42,486 nucleotides of DNA from an uncultured Hippea sp. (lineage in GTDB: Bacteria > Campylobacterota_A > Desulfurellia > JAADFJ01). Below the pieces are notes generated by a model. It saw only the letters and a list, made by a program, of their open reading frames with translations. It was not told the DNA's origin and ran no database searches. The stretch lies in assembly GCA_913009315.1 (NCBI GenBank), contig CAJVZA010000007.1, positions 1 through 42,486 on the forward strand. Direction: 5' to 3'. Position numbers and translations under genes: made by a program. Shown one piece after another: positions 794 through 39,604 of the stretch (position 1 is the first letter of the stretch; every line of letters begins with the position of its first letter).

Positions 794-795
794 AG

Positions 796-900
796 TACCT
801 CTATCTAATCCATGAACGGCCGTCTTGAATCCTCCGGTGTGCTGCAAGTCCCGGCAGCAATAAGCCCCGCTGTTACTTGTGTTTGCAATTTACGCCTTTT
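796..900 (+). repeat. Divergent copy (A) of a palindromic intergenic repeat, just after the kbl stop
   Basis: TACCTCTATCTAATCCATGAACGGCCGTCTTGA resembles the start of the copy at 15951-16060 (minus strand ACCTCTATTAATTCATGAACGATCATTCTGAG). Right boundary uncertain. Confidence 0.5.
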
Positions 901-2668: not shown

Positions 2669-3610
2669 ATGTTCAGCAATATAAAATTGATACCTGCTCC
2701 AATGGCATCTCTTACGGATCTGCCGCTTAGAGAGCTCTATATAGAATTTGGCGCAAAGGTTGTAGTGTCTGAAATGATTTCATCTGAGGCGCTCCATTAT
2801 GGCAAGCCTTCGGATCTTTTAATCAGATCGCTTTCCCAGCATGATCATTACGACGGAAGCTATATTTTCGGCGCCCAGATTTTTGGTTCCGATAAGAAAA
2901 AAATGGTGGATGCGGCTTGCTTTATTTCGCAATTTCCTGTTGATTTCATTGATATAAATGCAGGATGCCCTGTTAAAAAAGTAATATCTCAACATTCCGG
3001 AGCATATCTTATGAAAGATTACGAGAGACTTTTCGATATCTGCGAAGCGGTAAAAGCATCGACATCGCTGCCCGTAACGGTAAAAATCCGCATAGGATTT
3101 ACAAAGATTGCCGACAATATTACGGAAATTTGCAAAAAGCTTGAATCAATAGGTATATCGGCTTTATTTGTTCATGCGAGAACAAGAGATGAGTGGTTCT
3201 CAGGCGAATGTCACTGGGATATTTTAAAAAAAATAACATCGGCAGTCAGTATACCTCTGTTTGCCAATGGAAGCATAGACAGCAAAGATTATTCGAATAT
3301 CGTTATCGACGAAACATCGGCAAACGGCGTTATGATAGGAAGATATGCCGCGCAGGCACCATGGATTTTTTCAAGCTGGGCGGGAAAGTCTTTTAAAATT
3401 GATAGAAAATTTGTTGCAGAAATCATGATCAAACATCTCGCAGCAGCAGAATCTTTGTATGGAGAATATGCCGCAACAAAACTTCGAAAACAACTTATGC
3501 TCTATTCTTATAAATTCTCAAACTCAAAACAGTTTAAAATCTCGATCTGCAATTCCTCAAGCGTAAAAGAAACTCTGAATGCTATAAAGCGTTGGCAAAA
3601 TGCGGCTTAG
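2669..3610 (+). CDS. dus: tRNA-dihydrouridine synthase
   Basis: PAPMASLTD N-terminus, DINAGCPVKKV (catalytic Cys), VKIRIGF, HARTRDE. The listed ORF begins at a TTG (2651); ATG at 2669 seems more likely. Confidence 0.92.
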   Translation: MFSNIKLIPAPMASLTDLPLRELYIEFGAKVVVSEMISSEALHYGKPSDLLIRSLSQHDHYDGSYIFGAQIFGSDKKKMVDAACFISQFPVDFIDINAGCPVKKVISQHSGAYLMKDYERLFDICEAVKASTSLPVTVKIRIGFTKIADNITEICKKLESIGISALFVHARTRDEWFSGECHWDILKKITSAVSIPLFANGSIDSKDYSNIVIDETSANGVMIGRYAAQAPWIFSSWAGKSFKIDRKFVAEIMIKHLAAAESLYGEYAATKLRKQLMLYSYKFSNSKQFKISICNSSSVKETLNAIKRWQNAA

Positions 3611-8975: not shown

Positions 8976-9066
8976 TGTTAATCTATGAACGATCATCTTG
9001 AGCTCGAAATTAACATTCTCTGTGTCGCAAATCCCGGTAATAGTAAAGCTATTACCGGGATTTGCA
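8976..9066 (+). repeat. Copy (B) of the palindromic intergenic repeat, after livJ
   Basis: TGTTAATCTATGAACGATCATCTTGAGCTCGAAATT matches the consensus start; the 17-bp perfect hairpin lies in its distal part. Right end not clearly defined. Confidence 0.6.
9027..9065 (+). terminator. Perfect 17-bp stem / 5-nt loop hairpin between livJ and livH (attenuator or mRNA-stabilising hairpin)
   Basis: GCAAATCCCGGTAATAG-TAAAG-CTATTACCGGGATTTGC. No T-tract follows, so not a classical intrinsic terminator. Confidence 0.6.
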
Positions 9067-9126
9067 GCTTACCGACGGATATAGGCATCCCAAAACACAC
9101 CAAACAGCAGGCACGGACTAAAAAAT

Positions 9127-11679: not shown

Positions 11680-12394
11680 AATAGAAAAACTTTCAGCGGG
11701 TTATGCGGATACGCAGGTTCTGTGGGACATAAATTTATCGGTAGAAAATGGTGAAACCGTTGCATTGATAGGCTCTAACGGAGCCGGAAAATCAACGCTT
11801 CTTGAAACCGTGATCGGTCTTGTCAAACCAATTTCAGGATTGATAGAACTTGAGAACAAACCTGTATATAGTGACTCAGCATCTATATCTATTCCAACCA
11901 GAGAAAGAGTTAAAAACGGAATGTCTCTTGTACCTCAGGGAAGACATCTTTTTCCGAATATGACAGTTGAAGAAAATATCTCTTTAGGGGCTTTTCTGCA
12001 AAACAACAGAAAGACGCTAAAAAAAGAACTCGAAAAGGTATACGAACTGTTTCCAAGAGTCTATGAGAGAAAAAATCATCCTGCAGGCAAGCTTTCCGGT
12101 GGAGAGCAACAGATGGTTGCGATTGCCAGAGCTCTAATGTCCAAACCTAAACTGCTTATGATAGATGAATTATCACTTGGATTGGCACCTGTAATCGTTG
12201 ATATTCTCATAGAAATAATTTATGATATCAGCAAAACGGGTACTTCACTGCTTGTGGTTGAGCAGGATGTTCAGGTAGCTTTAAGTGTTGCAAAAAGAGC
12301 ATATGTGCTCGAAACAGGCAAAGTTGTCATGCAAGGCAAATCAAAAGATCTGCTTGATGATCCGCAGATACAATCGGCATATTTGGGAATATAG
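11672..12394 (+). CDS. livF: Branched-chain amino-acid ABC transporter ATP-binding protein LivF
   Basis: Walker A GSNGAGKSTLLETVIG, VPQGRHLFPNMTVEENI, LSGGEQQMVAIARALM, LLVVEQDVQVALSVAKRAYVLETG. ORF track starts at 11645; ATG at 11672 (MLKIEKLSAGYAD) fits the family better. Confidence 0.95.
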   Translation: MLKIEKLSAGYADTQVLWDINLSVENGETVALIGSNGAGKSTLLETVIGLVKPISGLIELENKPVYSDSASISIPTRERVKNGMSLVPQGRHLFPNMTVEENISLGAFLQNNRKTLKKELEKVYELFPRVYERKNHPAGKLSGGEQQMVAIARALMSKPKLLMIDELSLGLAPVIVDILIEIIYDISKTGTSLLVVEQDVQVALSVAKRAYVLETGKVVMQGKSKDLLDDPQIQSAYLGI

Positions 12395-12437
12395 CCGAAT
12401 CCATATTTTTTTAGCGGATCTTTATCCGTGTCATCGG

Positions 12438-13175
12438 TTAATAAAATATTCCGTTTAAACAGTTTACAGCAAACTGCATTGCCAATCTGCCGGATCTTCC
12501 GGCACGGGCAAGTGCCCAGCGTTCAGCATTTTTTTCGTAACGTTTTTCCCATTTAATATTCAACTTTTTAAAGTAATATTTTACAATAGCCAAATATCTC
12601 TCTTTTGAAAGTGGATAAAACGGTATGATTAGACCGAAGCGAGCAGAAACAGAAAGAATCTCCGAAGAAGTTTCATCCGGATGAATATCATTATTATTGA
12701 TCTCACTAATAAGATGTCGTTTGTTTGCGGTTGCTACAATGAGTGCATTCTCGGGAAGCATTGAAAGTCCGCCATCAAGCGAACGTTTAAAGTTGCGATA
12801 TATATCAGGATCGTCGAGTCCCAGATCATCCATGAATATAAGAAATCGATAACGAATATTATAAATTTCCTCTGATAATTTTAACAGCTCTTCAGGATCA
12901 AAAAGTTCTATTGCTTTAAGATTCCTGCCGGAAAATCGCTCTATCATTTCATGCACAAGAGTAGATTTTCCGCAGCCTCGCTCACCCCACAGCAGAACAT
13001 TCACAGTCGGTGTTCCGTTAATAAACGCAGACAGATTTTTTTCCATCAGTTCTCTCTGCTTGTCTACGCCAAGCAATCTTATTTCTGTCCTTCTAAAGCT
13101 CCTTGTCGGTACGATTCTTTCGCTTCGGCTATCCCAGCGAAATGCGGTAAATTCGTTTAAAATATCGGTATTCAT
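12438..13175 (-). CDS. AAA ATPase of the DUF815 family
   Basis: GVDKQRELMEKNLSAFINGTPTVNVLLWGERGCGKSTLV, DDLGLDDPD, LPENALIVATANKRHLISE. Confidence 0.85.
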   Translation of the reverse strand: MNTDILNEFTAFRWDSRSERIVPTRSFRRTEIRLLGVDKQRELMEKNLSAFINGTPTVNVLLWGERGCGKSTLVHEMIERFSGRNLKAIELFDPEELLKLSEEIYNIRYRFLIFMDDLGLDDPDIYRNFKRSLDGGLSMLPENALIVATANKRHLISEINNNDIHPDETSSEILSVSARFGLIIPFYPLSKERYLAIVKYYFKKLNIKWEKRYEKNAERWALARAGRSGRLAMQFAVNCLNGIFY

Positions 13176-13196
13176 TTATTCTCCGGTTAAGGTAAC

Positions 13197-13316
13197 TCTA
13201 TTAATTTTGAGCGTCCGATTGAGAATCTAAATCTGCCGGTAAGACGCAAACTGCAAAAGTTGGCAGTACCAATAAGGCTGATTTGGAGCACAATATGATC
13301 GTTCATAGATTATAGA
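13197..13316 (-). repeat. Copy (C) of the palindromic intergenic repeat; supplies the stop codon of the CCA-transferase gene
   Basis: Minus strand TCTATAATCTATGAACGATCATATTGTGCTCCAAATC...TCAATCGGACGCTCAAAATTAATAGA; both ends match copy D. Confidence 0.75.
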
Positions 13317-14716
13317 TCTGCCTTTTTAAGATTTTTTACAATTTCAGCTGCATATTCTATCGCCTCTGATCTATTTTTTATAGCCCCCTTAATCTGCTCT
13401 TCCCGTATCTTTTTGAGAATAGTCTTAAAGACTGGAGATGGTTTCAATTGAAACTCTCTTATTATATCATATCCGTTTATCAGGGGAGCAATCTGTTTTT
13501 TTGGTAAATAATAATTGAAGTAAAAATCCGAAAGCTCTATAAACATCTTATGCATATCTACAAAGAGCGATTGGGATATTTGCCCTTTTGCAAGGGTATC
13601 GGCAATTGATAAAAAAAGAATCAATACGCCAAGTTCATCATATTTGCTGAAAAATCTTACCTTATGTTTTTTCAGCATTCTCTTTTCTCTAAAAAGTCTG
13701 AAATAATCGGCAACTGCAAGATGATAGAGAATAAGCTTCTTAATATCGAGACTCTCTTTTTTTGCAAGAGAAAGTCTCGGCGCGATCTTCTCATTGAATA
13801 TTTTTGCGCCTTTTGACTCATGCCTGTAAAAATGGATGGAACCCCCGTAGTTGGTTTTTACAAACGGTTTTCCTATGTCGTGAAAGAGAGCTGCAACTTT
13901 AAGTATTAGCATGTTTTTTTTAATCAATTCCTTTAATTCGGTATTATGCTTTACTATATTATCAATATCACAAATCATCTCATCTATTTTTCTTACAGTC
14001 AGTAAAGAGTGATCTTTTACATCATAAAGATGGAATCTGTTTTGAGTGCATTCATTTGCATATCTAAAATTTACAAACATCTGATCGATAAGCCCTACCC
14101 TGTTCATTTCAACAAGATATTCATAACTTTCTGTCGCTATAAGTTTCAAAAACTCATAACCGATTCTCTCTGATGAAATGCGTCTGATCAGTTTTTTGTT
14201 TTTTTCAATCAGCAATAGAGATCTGTCGGAAATTTTAAATTTTAGTTCAGCTGCTATTCTGAAAGCCCTCAGCATGCGCAGAGGATCATCTTTTATTGCA
14301 TTTTCACTTATTATTCTGATAATCCTGTTTTTCAGATCGGACTTTCCATTAAGAGGATCAATGATCGATTGAGTCGCAAAATCATACGCCATTGCGTTTA
14401 TCGACAGGTCTCTTTTTAACAGATCGGATTCTATATCGCCGGCTTTCGGCAAAGAGACATCAATTGTAAAATCTGCCCCATAAGATCTCCATACGGATCT
14501 GTCATTTCCAAATCGAAAAAAAGATACCCCGAGACTCATTGCAACAGACTTTATAAATTCCGATTCTTTGCCGAAAACAACAAAATCATAATCCGGACTA
14601 TTTTTTCCTAAAATCAGATCTCTAACATATCCTCCGACCAGATAAGCTTTATATCTGCATGCCGCAGATGCTATTTTTTCGAAAAAGATACTATTTTTTT
14701 TAAATTGTTCTTTTAT
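13310..14716 (-). CDS. CCA tRNA nucleotidyltransferase / poly(A) polymerase family with HD domain; 5' end uncertain (no canonical start in the conserved frame)
   Basis: In-frame extension upstream of the listed ATG (14539) reads KEQFKKNSIFFEKIASAACRYKAYLVGGYVRDLILGKNSPDYDFVVFGKESEFIKSVAMSLGV, containing GGYVRDLILG and DYDFVV. Downstream: RDLSINAMAYD, LRAFRIAAEL, ALFHDIGKP (HD domain). Confidence 0.85.
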   Translation of the reverse strand: MKEQFKKNSIFFEKIASAACRYKAYLVGGYVRDLILGKNSPDYDFVVFGKESEFIKSVAMSLGVSFFRFGNDRSVWRSYGADFTIDVSLPKAGDIESDLLKRDLSINAMAYDFATQSIIDPLNGKSDLKNRIIRIISENAIKDDPLRMLRAFRIAAELKFKISDRSLLLIEKNKKLIRRISSERIGYEFLKLIATESYEYLVEMNRVGLIDQMFVNFRYANECTQNRFHLYDVKDHSLLTVRKIDEMICDIDNIVKHNTELKELIKKNMLILKVAALFHDIGKPFVKTNYGGSIHFYRHESKGAKIFNEKIAPRLSLAKKESLDIKKLILYHLAVADYFRLFREKRMLKKHKVRFFSKYDELGVLILFLSIADTLAKGQISQSLFVDMHKMFIELSDFYFNYYLPKKQIAPLINGYDIIREFQLKPSPVFKTILKKIREEQIKGAIKNRSEAIEYAAEIVKNLKKADL

Positions 14717-14732
14717 TGTCTTTATACCTTTT

Positions 14733-15920
14733 TTAAATAACTATAATTTTTCCATCTTGTCCGTTCAATATTTCGCCTCCGTTATCTCCGACAAGATATG
14801 TATCCTCCAATCCTACAACCCCTTCATCAAAAACAATTTTAGGCTCAACAGCTATCACCATAGATTTTTCCAGCGGTTCATCAAAACGTTTTGCCAGAAC
14901 AGGATACTCATCTATAGCCAATCCTATGCCATGTCCGACAAAATGTACCTGCGATTCTCCTTGCCCCATAAAAATTTTTTCATATCCGGCTTTTGCCGCC
15001 TTTGCCAATACGCTCTCATATATAGATGAAGGAATCTCACCCGGATGAAGTCTGTCTGCTATATAGTCTCTCATATCAATACAGAATTGATGCGCATCAG
15101 TCATCTGTCCGGACAGATTCCCAATAGAATATGTCGTGCTCTTATCGGTTTTATATCCCTGATATCCATATAGAATATCAACCATAATTGGAGAATTTTT
15201 TTCTATTTTTATCAAAGGACTTCCAAAAAACGGACTGGCAGGACAAATTCCCCAACCGCCGCCGGGAGTTCCGTCGAAAACACTATAACATTTTCCTCCC
15301 TTTCCTGAAACAATAGTCGGTGTAGTAATCTCCTGCTCGAATGCATTCATGCGGCAGATACCGTCATGTTCACCATAAAACATACTTTTAAGAATATCGG
15401 CGGCAAGCTGCTTTTCGGTTTTTCCTGCCCTGATTAATTTCGGTATAATATTTTCGTGAAGCTCTTTCTGGAGTTCTCCGGCTCTTTTTAAAAGTGAAAT
15501 CTCATAGTCGCTTTTCTTTGATCTTATATATACCATAATAGAATCAATAGGTTGAAAATCAGCTTTGATTCGTTTTGATAGTCTTGCCGAAACCTGTAAA
15601 GTTATGCGCATAAACTCAAGACCGATCTTCTTGCCCGAACAATCTCCTATAACGGCCGTAATGTCTCCTATGCTTTTCATGGGATAAATTTCTTTGATCG
15701 GTGATTCAAGCTTTGTTCGGTAAAGACTTTTTCTGACAAAAAGCTTAGGCTGGCCTTCCGGTTCGACAAATAACATTGCGTTTACAATTGTACCCGTAAG
15801 ATAAAAGAGATTCATTCTGCCGGCTATAAGAGCACCATCCAGATTATTATATTGCAGTGCGGCTTGAAGATTTTTTATTCTTTTGTTTATTTCATACTCC
15901 GGTAAATAAAATTGTTCCAT
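14733..15920 (-). CDS. M24 family metallopeptidase (Xaa-Pro aminopeptidase-like)
   Basis: Creatinase-like N-terminus plus pita-bread domain: VDILYGYQGYKTDKSTTYSIG, HFVGHGIGLAIDEYPVLA, MVIAVEPKIVFDEGVVGLEDTYLV. Confidence 0.9.
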   Translation of the reverse strand: MEQFYLPEYEINKRIKNLQAALQYNNLDGALIAGRMNLFYLTGTIVNAMLFVEPEGQPKLFVRKSLYRTKLESPIKEIYPMKSIGDITAVIGDCSGKKIGLEFMRITLQVSARLSKRIKADFQPIDSIMVYIRSKKSDYEISLLKRAGELQKELHENIIPKLIRAGKTEKQLAADILKSMFYGEHDGICRMNAFEQEITTPTIVSGKGGKCYSVFDGTPGGGWGICPASPFFGSPLIKIEKNSPIMVDILYGYQGYKTDKSTTYSIGNLSGQMTDAHQFCIDMRDYIADRLHPGEIPSSIYESVLAKAAKAGYEKIFMGQGESQVHFVGHGIGLAIDEYPVLAKRFDEPLEKSMVIAVEPKIVFDEGVVGLEDTYLVGDNGGEILNGQDGKIIVI

Positions 15921-15950
15921 TTTGACTCCTTTTTAATTGTTCAAATCGTC

Positions 15951-16060
15951 TCTGTTAATTCTAAGCGTTTCGAATTGAGCCCCAAATCCGCCTGTCTGAG
16001 TGTAACGTACAGGAGGCGGGCGAATTTGGGGCTCAGAATGATCGTTCATGAATTAATAGA
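15951..16060 (-). repeat. Best-preserved copy (D) of the palindromic intergenic repeat; ends in 11-bp near-perfect terminal inverted repeats; supplies the sir2 stop codon
   Basis: Minus strand TCTATTAATTCATGAACGATCATTCTGAGCCCCAAATTCGCC...GGCGGATTTGGGGCTCAATTCGAAACGCTTAGAATTAACAGA: terminal TCTATTAATTC/TCTGTTAATTC, internal stem TGAGCCCCAAAT/ATTTGGGGCTCA. Confidence 0.85.
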
Positions 16061-16900
16061 GGTATCCTTAAGTTGATGATAGTTAGAAATTTTTTTTAAT
16101 TGCTTGTATATATCCGAAAGAACAGTACCAACCATTCCGCAAAGCAGGAAATCAGATATGCCATCTTCCGTAAGAACAGTTTTTGATAAATTTATTTCAA
16201 CCACAACAGCGGGACGTTTTTTATATTTTGCTATTCTTGGGAGTGCGGCGAATGGATAGACAACAGTCGATGTGCCGCATACAAAAACCAGCTCAGCCTT
16301 TCTCATCTCGTTTATGGAGTTTTCAATAATATCTTCGTCAATGGGCTCTGTAAAATGCACGACATCATCCTTAAGAGCATTTCCGCAGCGGCACAAAGGG
16401 GGAAGTTTGTCAAAATTTACTTCATTCCAAAAATATTTAGCACCGCAATTGATGCATTTAAGTTTATCAATACTTCCATGATATTCAATAACATTTTTTG
16501 AACCGGCCTTACGGTGCAATCCATCCACATTCTGTGTAATTACAGATTTCACAAATCCTTCTTTTTCCATAGAACTCATGATAAAATGTGCCTTATTAGG
16601 TTTCGCATTCCTTAGGATTTTGTAAAATTTTCCATATCTTGAATCGGAGTCAAGGATTGCCTCCCAATATGTTTTTGGATTTTTTAAAAAAAGCTCATAA
16701 AGATGATAGGCGTACTCCTCCGATTCTTTGTCTTTTGTCCAGATTCCATTGACGCCTCTGAAATCCGGTATACCTGATTCAGTGGATACGCCGGCACCTG
16801 TCAAAATGACAGTATAGTTGCTTTTGACAATCAGTTTGACTACTTCCAAAAGCTCTGCATCAGCAGGCAAGTCGTTTTGCATACTCGACATATCGCTCAC
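16046..16900 (-). CDS. SIR2 family NAD-dependent protein deacylase
   Basis: TGAGVSTESGIPDFRG, TQNVDGLHRKAG, YHGSIDKLKCINC...CRCG zinc site. Overlaps the pfkA 3' end. Confidence 0.93.
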   Translation of the reverse strand: MSDMSSMQNDLPADAELLEVVKLIVKSNYTVILTGAGVSTESGIPDFRGVNGIWTKDKESEEYAYHLYELFLKNPKTYWEAILDSDSRYGKFYKILRNAKPNKAHFIMSSMEKEGFVKSVITQNVDGLHRKAGSKNVIEYHGSIDKLKCINCGAKYFWNEVNFDKLPPLCRCGNALKDDVVHFTEPIDEDIIENSINEMRKAELVFVCGTSTVVYPFAALPRIAKYKKRPAVVVEINLSKTVLTEDGISDFLLCGMVGTVLSDIYKQLKKISNYHQLKDTSINS

Positions 16901-17819
16901 CCAATATCTTTTTATGCGCCAAAACCTCTCTGAACGATGTTATGGCAATCCTATTTCCGACAAGACCAACCATAACTCCGCTTATACCGTCAAGAAGTGT
17001 TTTCACCGCCTGAGCACCGAGTCGAAATCCCAGCATTCTGTCGAATACGGTGGGAGATCCGCCCCTTTGAAGATGTCCCAAAACCGTAACACGTGTATCA
17101 AATTTTGAGATAGTTTTTAAAGCATCAGACATTTCAGCTGTTGCTCCCGTTCCCTCGGCAACTACAATAATACTATATTCTCTGCCTCTCTCATGCTCAT
17201 TTTTCAGCCTGCCGGCAATACCTTTAATATCGTATTGCACCTCAGGAATAATAAGCGCTTCCGCACCGGTTGCCATAGCTCCTACAAGAGCCAAATATCC
17301 GGATGACCGCCCCATAGTTTCAATTACAAAAGCCCTGCCATGAGAAGAAGCGGTATCTTTTATGCTGTCAATAGAGCGTACGATAGTATTAAGTGAAGTA
17401 TCGACACCCAATGCAATATCGGTTCCGTATATATCATTATCAATTGATGCCGGAATAGCCACAACAGGTACTCCTATTAACTCCAAAGCCATTGCTCCAT
17501 GAAGAGACCCGTCACCGCCGATCACTATCAATCCGTCAATACCATTTTTTTGCAGCACTGCGGCTGCCTGCTTTTGAATCAAAACCTTTTCAAATTCCGG
17601 AAATCGAGATGTTTTAAGGAGAGTTCCCCCTCTTCTTGCAGCTCCCGACACGGTTTTATAATACATTTCAATAGCCATACCTTTAACCAAACCAAGATAG
17701 CCTCTTAAAAAACCGGTTACGGAAATATTATCCCTGCGTGATTCTTCAACAATTGATTTGAGAGTCGGATTCATGCCTGCCGAATCACCGCCGCTCGTTA
17801 AAACTGCTATACGTTTCAT
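16860..17819 (-). CDS. pfkA: 6-phosphofructokinase
   Basis: IAVLTSGGDSAGMNP, GGTLLKTSR, VIGGDGSLHGA, PASIDNDIYGTD, ETMGRSSGYLAL, GHLQRGGSPTVFDR. Confidence 0.95.
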   Translation of the reverse strand: MKRIAVLTSGGDSAGMNPTLKSIVEESRRDNISVTGFLRGYLGLVKGMAIEMYYKTVSGAARRGGTLLKTSRFPEFEKVLIQKQAAAVLQKNGIDGLIVIGGDGSLHGAMALELIGVPVVAIPASIDNDIYGTDIALGVDTSLNTIVRSIDSIKDTASSHGRAFVIETMGRSSGYLALVGAMATGAEALIIPEVQYDIKGIAGRLKNEHERGREYSIIVVAEGTGATAEMSDALKTISKFDTRVTVLGHLQRGGSPTVFDRMLGFRLGAQAVKTLLDGISGVMVGLVGNRIAITSFREVLAHKKILGERYVEYAKRLAC

Positions 17820-39270: not shown

Positions 39271-39378
39271 ATAAGTTCCGTATGTTTCAAATTGAAGACA
39301 GCAGCAGAGATGTTGCCTGATTTGCAACAAAATAGAAGACTAATTCGAAGTTTAAGATAATCTTTATGAATTAACAGA
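39271..39378 (-). repeat. Divergent copy (E) of the palindromic intergenic repeat
   Basis: Minus strand TCTGTTAATTCATAAAGATTATCTTAAACTTCGAATT...TTCAATTTGAAACATACG resembles copy D at both ends (TCTATTAATTCATGAACGATCAT / TCAATTCGAAACGCTT). Confidence 0.45.
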
Positions 39379-39604
39379 GTCGCCCTTTACAGTCCGCCCC
39401 ATAATCAACATAACCTTCGGCAAAAAGAAAATATTAGTGTAATGCATCTTGTCGGCACAGCAGAAACTGCGGCGGCAGGGTTCAAATACGGTAAACATTT
39501 TCCCTCTTCTTGACCTTCGAATAGCTTAGTTGCTATGCTATCACTGCTTCAGCGCATACAATTACCTATAAAAACGCCGACAGATATGCACTGTACAAGA
39601 TGAG

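Follow-up and report, generated by a model that had tools for sequence, protein, structure and literature searches.

Five segments of a bacterial contig share an imperfect palindrome that lies in or close to the 3' ends of genes, one of them between positions 15,951 and 16,060, raising the question of whether these repeats are mobile elements, signals acting on the 3' ends of transcripts, or both. A sequence-only reading of the DNA had left the choice between a mobile MITE/REP-like element and a 3'-end processing or termination element. The stretch analysed here, referred to throughout as the window, comprises 42,486 nucleotides and forms contig C7 of its own genome (G000; 1.74 Mb, 96 contigs, 87.6% complete). 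This source genome was compared with a syntenic, ~92% identical sister genome of the same genus (G001), and with a more distant congener (G002, ~74% identical).

Anatomy, spread, and insertion sites of the repeat

A complete copy of the repeat is ~160 bp long, within a range of 73–236 bp, and consists, in order, of a 19-bp terminal inverted repeat (TIR), a left block CRTRAACGATCATCYTGAGYCCC, a centre, a right block GGACTCTCAATTTGAAACGCTTA, and a second TIR. The TIRs of ~19 bp (GGGCACYTCTRTTAATYC) extend outward to GGG..CCC, with 85% of cells paired in helix 1, and the centre, often reading GCAAATTTTGGCAATAGC...GCTATTACCTGCAATTTGC, carries a variable hairpin. Size variants include short forms of 73–75 bp and others with an extra GC-rich palindrome in the centre. 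None contains a transposase gene, every copy being too short for one.

In the window, copy D (15948..16068, minus strand) is complete, matching both arm profiles, with its left TIR at 16068 and its right arm at 15948, and is neighboured by sir2 (16046-16900, -) and an M24 peptidase gene (14733-15920, -). Copy C (13191..13323, minus strand) is a shortened complete element that also matches both arm profiles, with a tRNA nucleotidyltransferase-like gene (13310-14539, -) and a DUF815 AAA gene (12438-13175, -) as its neighbours. Copies A and B retain the left arm alone in profile searches; copy A (794..900, plus strand) adds to it a remnant centre and adjoins the stop of an aminotransferase gene (71-793), which lies 1 nt inside the inferred element edge, and copy B (8976..9108, plus strand) adds its centre, the right arm having been lost in the source genome. 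Copy E (39271..39386, minus strand), 220 bp downstream of the nearest called gene end, keeps a good left arm at 39340-39386, with the remainder decayed and the right arm undetectable in the profile search. The leading block shared by A–D, the distal block shared by C and D, and the terminal inverted repeats noticed by the sequence-only reading are all borne out by alignment, whilst its size of ~110–120 bp applies to C and D as internally shortened copies and falls short of the full length.

A 26-nt pattern drawn from the leading block matches the window three times (B, C, and D), and matched none of 100 shuffles. Genome-wide, where fewer than about 10 copies would have spoken against a family, the 19-bp terminal motif RGGRCACYTCTRTTAATYC has 113 matches in the source genome at up to 3 mismatches, compared with 6 for the reversed control. 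Left-arm and right-arm profiles, applied to the stretches around the listed TIR matches, identify at least 95 loci in this genome, 43 of them with both arms among the matches listed. The sister genome holds 52 TIR matches (up to 2 mismatches), the congener 1, and other genomes 0–2, like their controls; among 25 genomes of the phylum, the source and its sister alone score, with the rest at background. Exact matches to the left block in GTDB occur solely in JAADFJ01 (contigs of ‘Campylobacterota bacterium M_MaxBin.016’), and no copy was found in viral contigs by exact pattern search or in plasmids by blastn. An integron attC site was considered and rejected, with the core reading GTTAATY and not GTTRRRY, and the neighbouring genes being housekeeping genes.

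The flanks of the repeat are distinctive. The left flank beyond the GGG spells TTAA (T 0.74, T 0.56, A 0.74, A 0.81). Of 43 unique left ends, 17 have TTAA within the final 6 nt, where the control averages 0.02. At the right end, viewed from outside and after a one-base shift of the model, TTA is present at 15 of 49 ends (0.09 in the control). These flanks fit a 4-bp duplication of TTAA upon insertion, a fit that falls short of proof since the duplication is clearly visible on both sides in only about 4–5 copies and the empty sites come from a genome of 74% identity; a duplication of TA within TTAA is a possible alternative.

At around 20 single-locus sites the source and sister genomes carry a copy in common, and the 17 of these that were aligned show identities of 0.57–0.87 including 30-bp flanks. 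Copy C is present at the same site in the sister genome, with the site empty in the congener, where its two genes overlap at ATGA. Site B in the congener is also without the element, and the sister's copy B has a right-arm-like block. The congener lacks both sir2 (window 16046-16900) and copy D, with pfk followed there by the M24 peptidase gene; as the gene is missing along with the element, no empty-site comparison can be drawn from copy D. Between the source and sister genomes copy D is 66% identical, compared with 92–93% for its flanks, and in the source genome it forms an unusually perfect hairpin. Arm-by-arm correction during replication, or recombinational replacement by another copy, could account for this divergence.

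Taken together, the ~95 loci, ~19-bp TIRs, TTAA-rich flanks, sites shared with the sister genome, and empty sites at C and B in the congener make it highly probable that the repeats are a family of non-autonomous DNA transposons (MITEs), whose orientation bias at gene ends would stem from the reading frame, and the mobile MITE-like half of the sequence-only reading is thereby supported. A transposase, since lost or missing from the assembly, would have moved copies into AT-rich targets of the TTAA type, with insertions made before the source and sister genomes split and falling mostly at tolerated sites between genes or at gene ends. Most copies would now be in decay. Three points count against this account, namely that no autonomous partner is seen, that the target duplication falls short of proof, and that the 66% identity of copy D goes beyond simple decay.

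Gene ends, reading frames, and RNA structure

The positions of the copies relative to genes, as placed by a simple codon-usage gene caller, bear on whether the family is instead a functional 3'-end RNA element, one that processes, stabilises, or terminates transcripts and is retained in the sense direction for its action on mRNA, as has been suggested of ERIC in yersiniae. Among the loci listed, 27 copies between tandem genes are sense and 17 antisense, with 18 further copies between divergent genes and 9 between convergent genes, and so no strong sense bias exists across the genome. Where genes meet the element the picture differs, with 19 stops inside or within 10 bp of a left arm versus 5 for a right arm (p=0.007), and 12 versus 1 lying inside an arm, again among the loci listed. 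The non-random sense placement proposed earlier is therefore upheld at the point of contact and fades to just 27:17 over tandem pairs as a whole. The related proposal that the block begins at or just after the stop in A–D suits copy A, where the stop is at the edge; the stop lies inside the element in C (by 14 nt) and D (by 22 nt), and in B it precedes the detected arm by 18 bp.

Nine of the 12 stops inside a left arm fall at exactly nt 22 and in a single frame, giving the host protein a tail of approximately KGTSINP*, with LKDTSINS, LKGAAINP, IKGASINP, IKNTSINP, and IKSTSINP among the variants, and a further protein of the sister genome ending LKGISANP. In the window, the left TIR of copy D supplies the in-frame tail of sir2 (16046..16067, minus strand; ...LKDTSINS*), with the sister's orthologue ending ...FKDTSVNP*. 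The hosts include Sir2, methionyl-tRNA formyltransferase-like, Mur ligase, DNA polymerase I, cytochrome c, TetR, CobD, and LuxR-type proteins. In 7 of the 9 nt-22 genes the Pfam domains end 7–27 residues before the C-terminus, indicating that the insertions are terminal; in Sir2 and the cytochrome they end 62–68 residues before it.

Over the final 30 codons of genes, TTAA is divided 89:66 between the frames xTT AA and TTA A. In the first of these frames the consensus left arm stops after 8 codons and the consensus right arm is open for all 56, and in the second both arms stop after 12. All nine cases fall in one combination of arm and frame and none in the other three, a split not easily put down to chance (0.57^9 = 0.007 counting the choice of left-arm frame by itself). 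The comparison was framed after the data were seen, and detection may be easier for arms under coding constraint, favouring exactly the nt-22 cases. As the left arm carries an early stop, with the right arm open in the same frame, the economical reading of the 19:5 contact bias is a filter that would remove long or frame-disturbing extensions, such that copies within last codons would have survived mainly where the left arm provides the early stop.

The same sense excess at contact can also be claimed for an RNA element, for which ERIC offers a precedent (PMC2229807), and copies D and B fold much more stably than their shuffles (z = -7.3 and -6.2), with L142 following at z = -2.6 and the stem of copy B perfectly conserved in two genomes. 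Folding of the remaining copies is not clearly better than that of shuffled sequences (C, z = -0.95; L113, -1.6; L122, -0.8; A, +1.4), and RNAalifold found no consensus pairs across 22 copies. The drawn palindrome contains 39 doubly changed cells compared with 29.6 in shuffles, 20 of 500 of which scored as high, a slight and weak covariation within the range that the tool warns of for related sequences. A scan for intrinsic terminators from 12300 to 17000 revealed no terminator-like site at C or D, and identity with an intrinsic terminator was rejected on this basis and on the missing T run after the stem of copy B. A scan of the window with Rfam 15 placed two tRNAs alone above the gathering score, with the repeat matching no described RNA family. 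With folding mostly at chance level, no consensus fold, slight covariation, and no terminators, an RNA function across the whole family is unlikely. The 18 copies between divergent genes and the 17 in tandem antisense positions point the same way, and we consider that a 3'-end RNA element explains the family with little probability. Processing or termination as the family's function, suggested by the sequence-only reading, consequently finds no backing in the folds, the terminator scan, or the weak orientation bias.

Individual copies may nevertheless have gained such a role. Copy B contains a hairpin (9027..9065, plus strand) with a perfect 17-bp stem, GCAAATCCCGGTAATAG-loop-CTATTACCGGGATTTGC, between the periplasmic-binding-protein and permease genes of an ABC operon. 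The stem is identical at 34 of 34 bases between the source and sister genomes, with two changes in the loop and 70% identity over the aligned intergenic region; a stretch as conserved as this stem arises in 0.15% of permutations, corrected to ~0.03 for the ~20 loci inspected. At the same site the congener possesses an unrelated 12-bp hairpin (z = -4.4). The T run is missing after both stems, which suggests a stabilising or processing hairpin rather than a terminator. Domestication of the copy B stem, set against the congener's unrelated hairpin, is thus possible, and a few copies, B above all, were perhaps co-opted as intercistronic RNA hairpins. A bolder proposal, which we hold to be doubtful, is that an older intercistronic hairpin of this branched-chain amino-acid-type ABC operon gave way to the centre of copy B, which is under selection as RNA, and that the tail of approximately KGTSINP*, found in nine or more unrelated proteins, is kept as useful and not just tolerated.

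The search for a transposase and a second repeat family

Searches of the source, sister, and congener genomes turned up no autonomous element bearing these TIRs, and among the TIR matches listed no pairs 0.8–3 kb apart were seen in the source or sister. DDE_Tnp_1 and DUF772 transposases are present, with no matching TIR at the ends of the IS elements found, and DDE_3 (IS630-type) is absent in the family search. In the present assemblies the family therefore appears to be an orphan, with the absence of a partner constituting weak evidence because these assemblies are incomplete and break at repeats.

Genes of the Y1_Tnp family number 5 above the family cut-off in the source genome and 1 in the sister, and blocks of the element lie within ~0.5 kb of Y1 genes at L284 and L286, as might be hoped for if the repeats were REP/BIME-like palindromes moved by a RAYT (Y1 transposase). 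None of these genes is flanked symmetrically, however, and a third match (L288) lies inside a transposase ORF and may be a chance occurrence. TIRs of 19 bp and TTAA flanks are not known as features of REP sequences and the HUH enzyme (RAYT) that moves them, and we count both against a RAYT origin, which we judge very improbable. The REP-like option of the sequence-only reading is accordingly set aside, and the RAYT or IS with the same termini that it had proposed to look for was not seen among the Y1, DDE_Tnp_1, and DUF772 genes present.

A second MITE family, with the TIR ATGAGACCACTGCACAATAARC, is more abundant, with 127 matches in the source genome, 101 in the sister, 2 in the congener, and 0 in 22 other genomes of the phylum. 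Its members range from bare palindromes of ~55 bp to forms of ~420 bp containing the present repeat (for example L003:1290-1710, L045:1525-1579, and L252:2018-2076 of the source genome). At L277:1477-2492 (contig C15 of the source genome), a shortened DDE_Tnp_1/DUF772 ORF has a second-family TIR 119 bp upstream of its start, and is a candidate relic of this family's autonomous partner. At L249:1551-4494 (contig C43), two consecutive ORFs, which may be halves of one redox-enzyme gene, meet at a second-family MITE (~2761-3027). A third palindrome, GC-rich (CCTGTCTGCGTGCG..GCACAGGCAGG), is nested in the centres of some copies of the present repeat (L118:142-330, L149:3002-3237, and L091:3003-3191), and is sometimes found in one orthologue and missing from the other. 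Near the end of the small contig C85 (L266:95-113) lies a sequence resembling an Illumina adapter, suggesting contamination of this contig. Although the youngest-looking, near-identical copies sit within an outer ATGAGACCACTGCACAATAARC element, the notion that all copies are fragments of the second family, and not a mobile unit of their own, is scarcely credible, with A–E and dozens more lacking the outer TIR and having their own TTAA flanks, and with outer elements lacking the inner copy also in existence.

Relation to described palindromic elements

Palindromic elements of Rickettsia resemble the present repeat in that they can add residues to proteins. These elements lie within proteins, whereas the present repeat gives C-terminal tails, with no read-through gene found. 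An in-frame insertion of the Rickettsia type was rejected here, no copy lying inside a called gene and three ‘in gene’ calls being edge overlaps.

As a non-autonomous transposon family, the repeat has several counterparts elsewhere. ERIC (IRU/RU-1), a 127-bp enterobacterial MITE, is likewise an imperfect intergenic palindrome, of ~130–160 bp in the forms compared, with TIRs, copies at gene 3' ends, and described fusions that change C-termini and stop codons (PMC2759123; PMC2229807). It is listed with a 7-bp TIR and TA termini, compared with ~19 bp and TTAA in the present repeat (PMC2229807). An effect of ERIC on RNA has been shown by experiment, and no sequence kinship between ERIC and the present repeat was established. 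In Coxiella burnetii, QMITE2 is found chiefly in the 3' untranslated regions of ORFs (PMC10969869), and both QMITE1 and QMITE2 overlap the C-termini of genes by a few to ~50 bp (PMC5896051); the present repeat, from another organism, differs in overlapping nine genes at one exact position and frame.

The Correia/NEMIS elements of Neisseria share a length of ~105–155 bp, long TIRs, size variants, a mostly intergenic location, and base-paired transcripts with the present repeat, but are listed with a 24-bp TIR and TA termini (PMC2229807), and their processing by RNase III has been shown. RUP of the pneumococcus is similar in length (~107 bp), copy number (~108), and possession of TIRs (PMC2229807), with the difference that its likely partner transposase is that of IS630-Spn1, and no IS630-type DDE_3 gene was found here. 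In TIR length and TA termini, GGGCACYTCTRTTAATYC with its TTAA flanks departs from the listed characters of ERIC, Correia, and RUP (PMC2229807).

A position at gene 3' ends and overlaps with C-termini are thus already known from QMITE2 and RU-1; what is new is the family itself, its recurring tail, and the candidate hairpin replacement. A poorly sampled lineage gains with it what appears to be an undescribed MITE family. Its placement shows that a pattern of ‘sense at gene 3' ends’ can come from reading-frame selection alone, which calls for caution when an RNA function is drawn from placement, whilst copy B offers a compact candidate for a transposon hairpin replacing the native hairpin of an operon.
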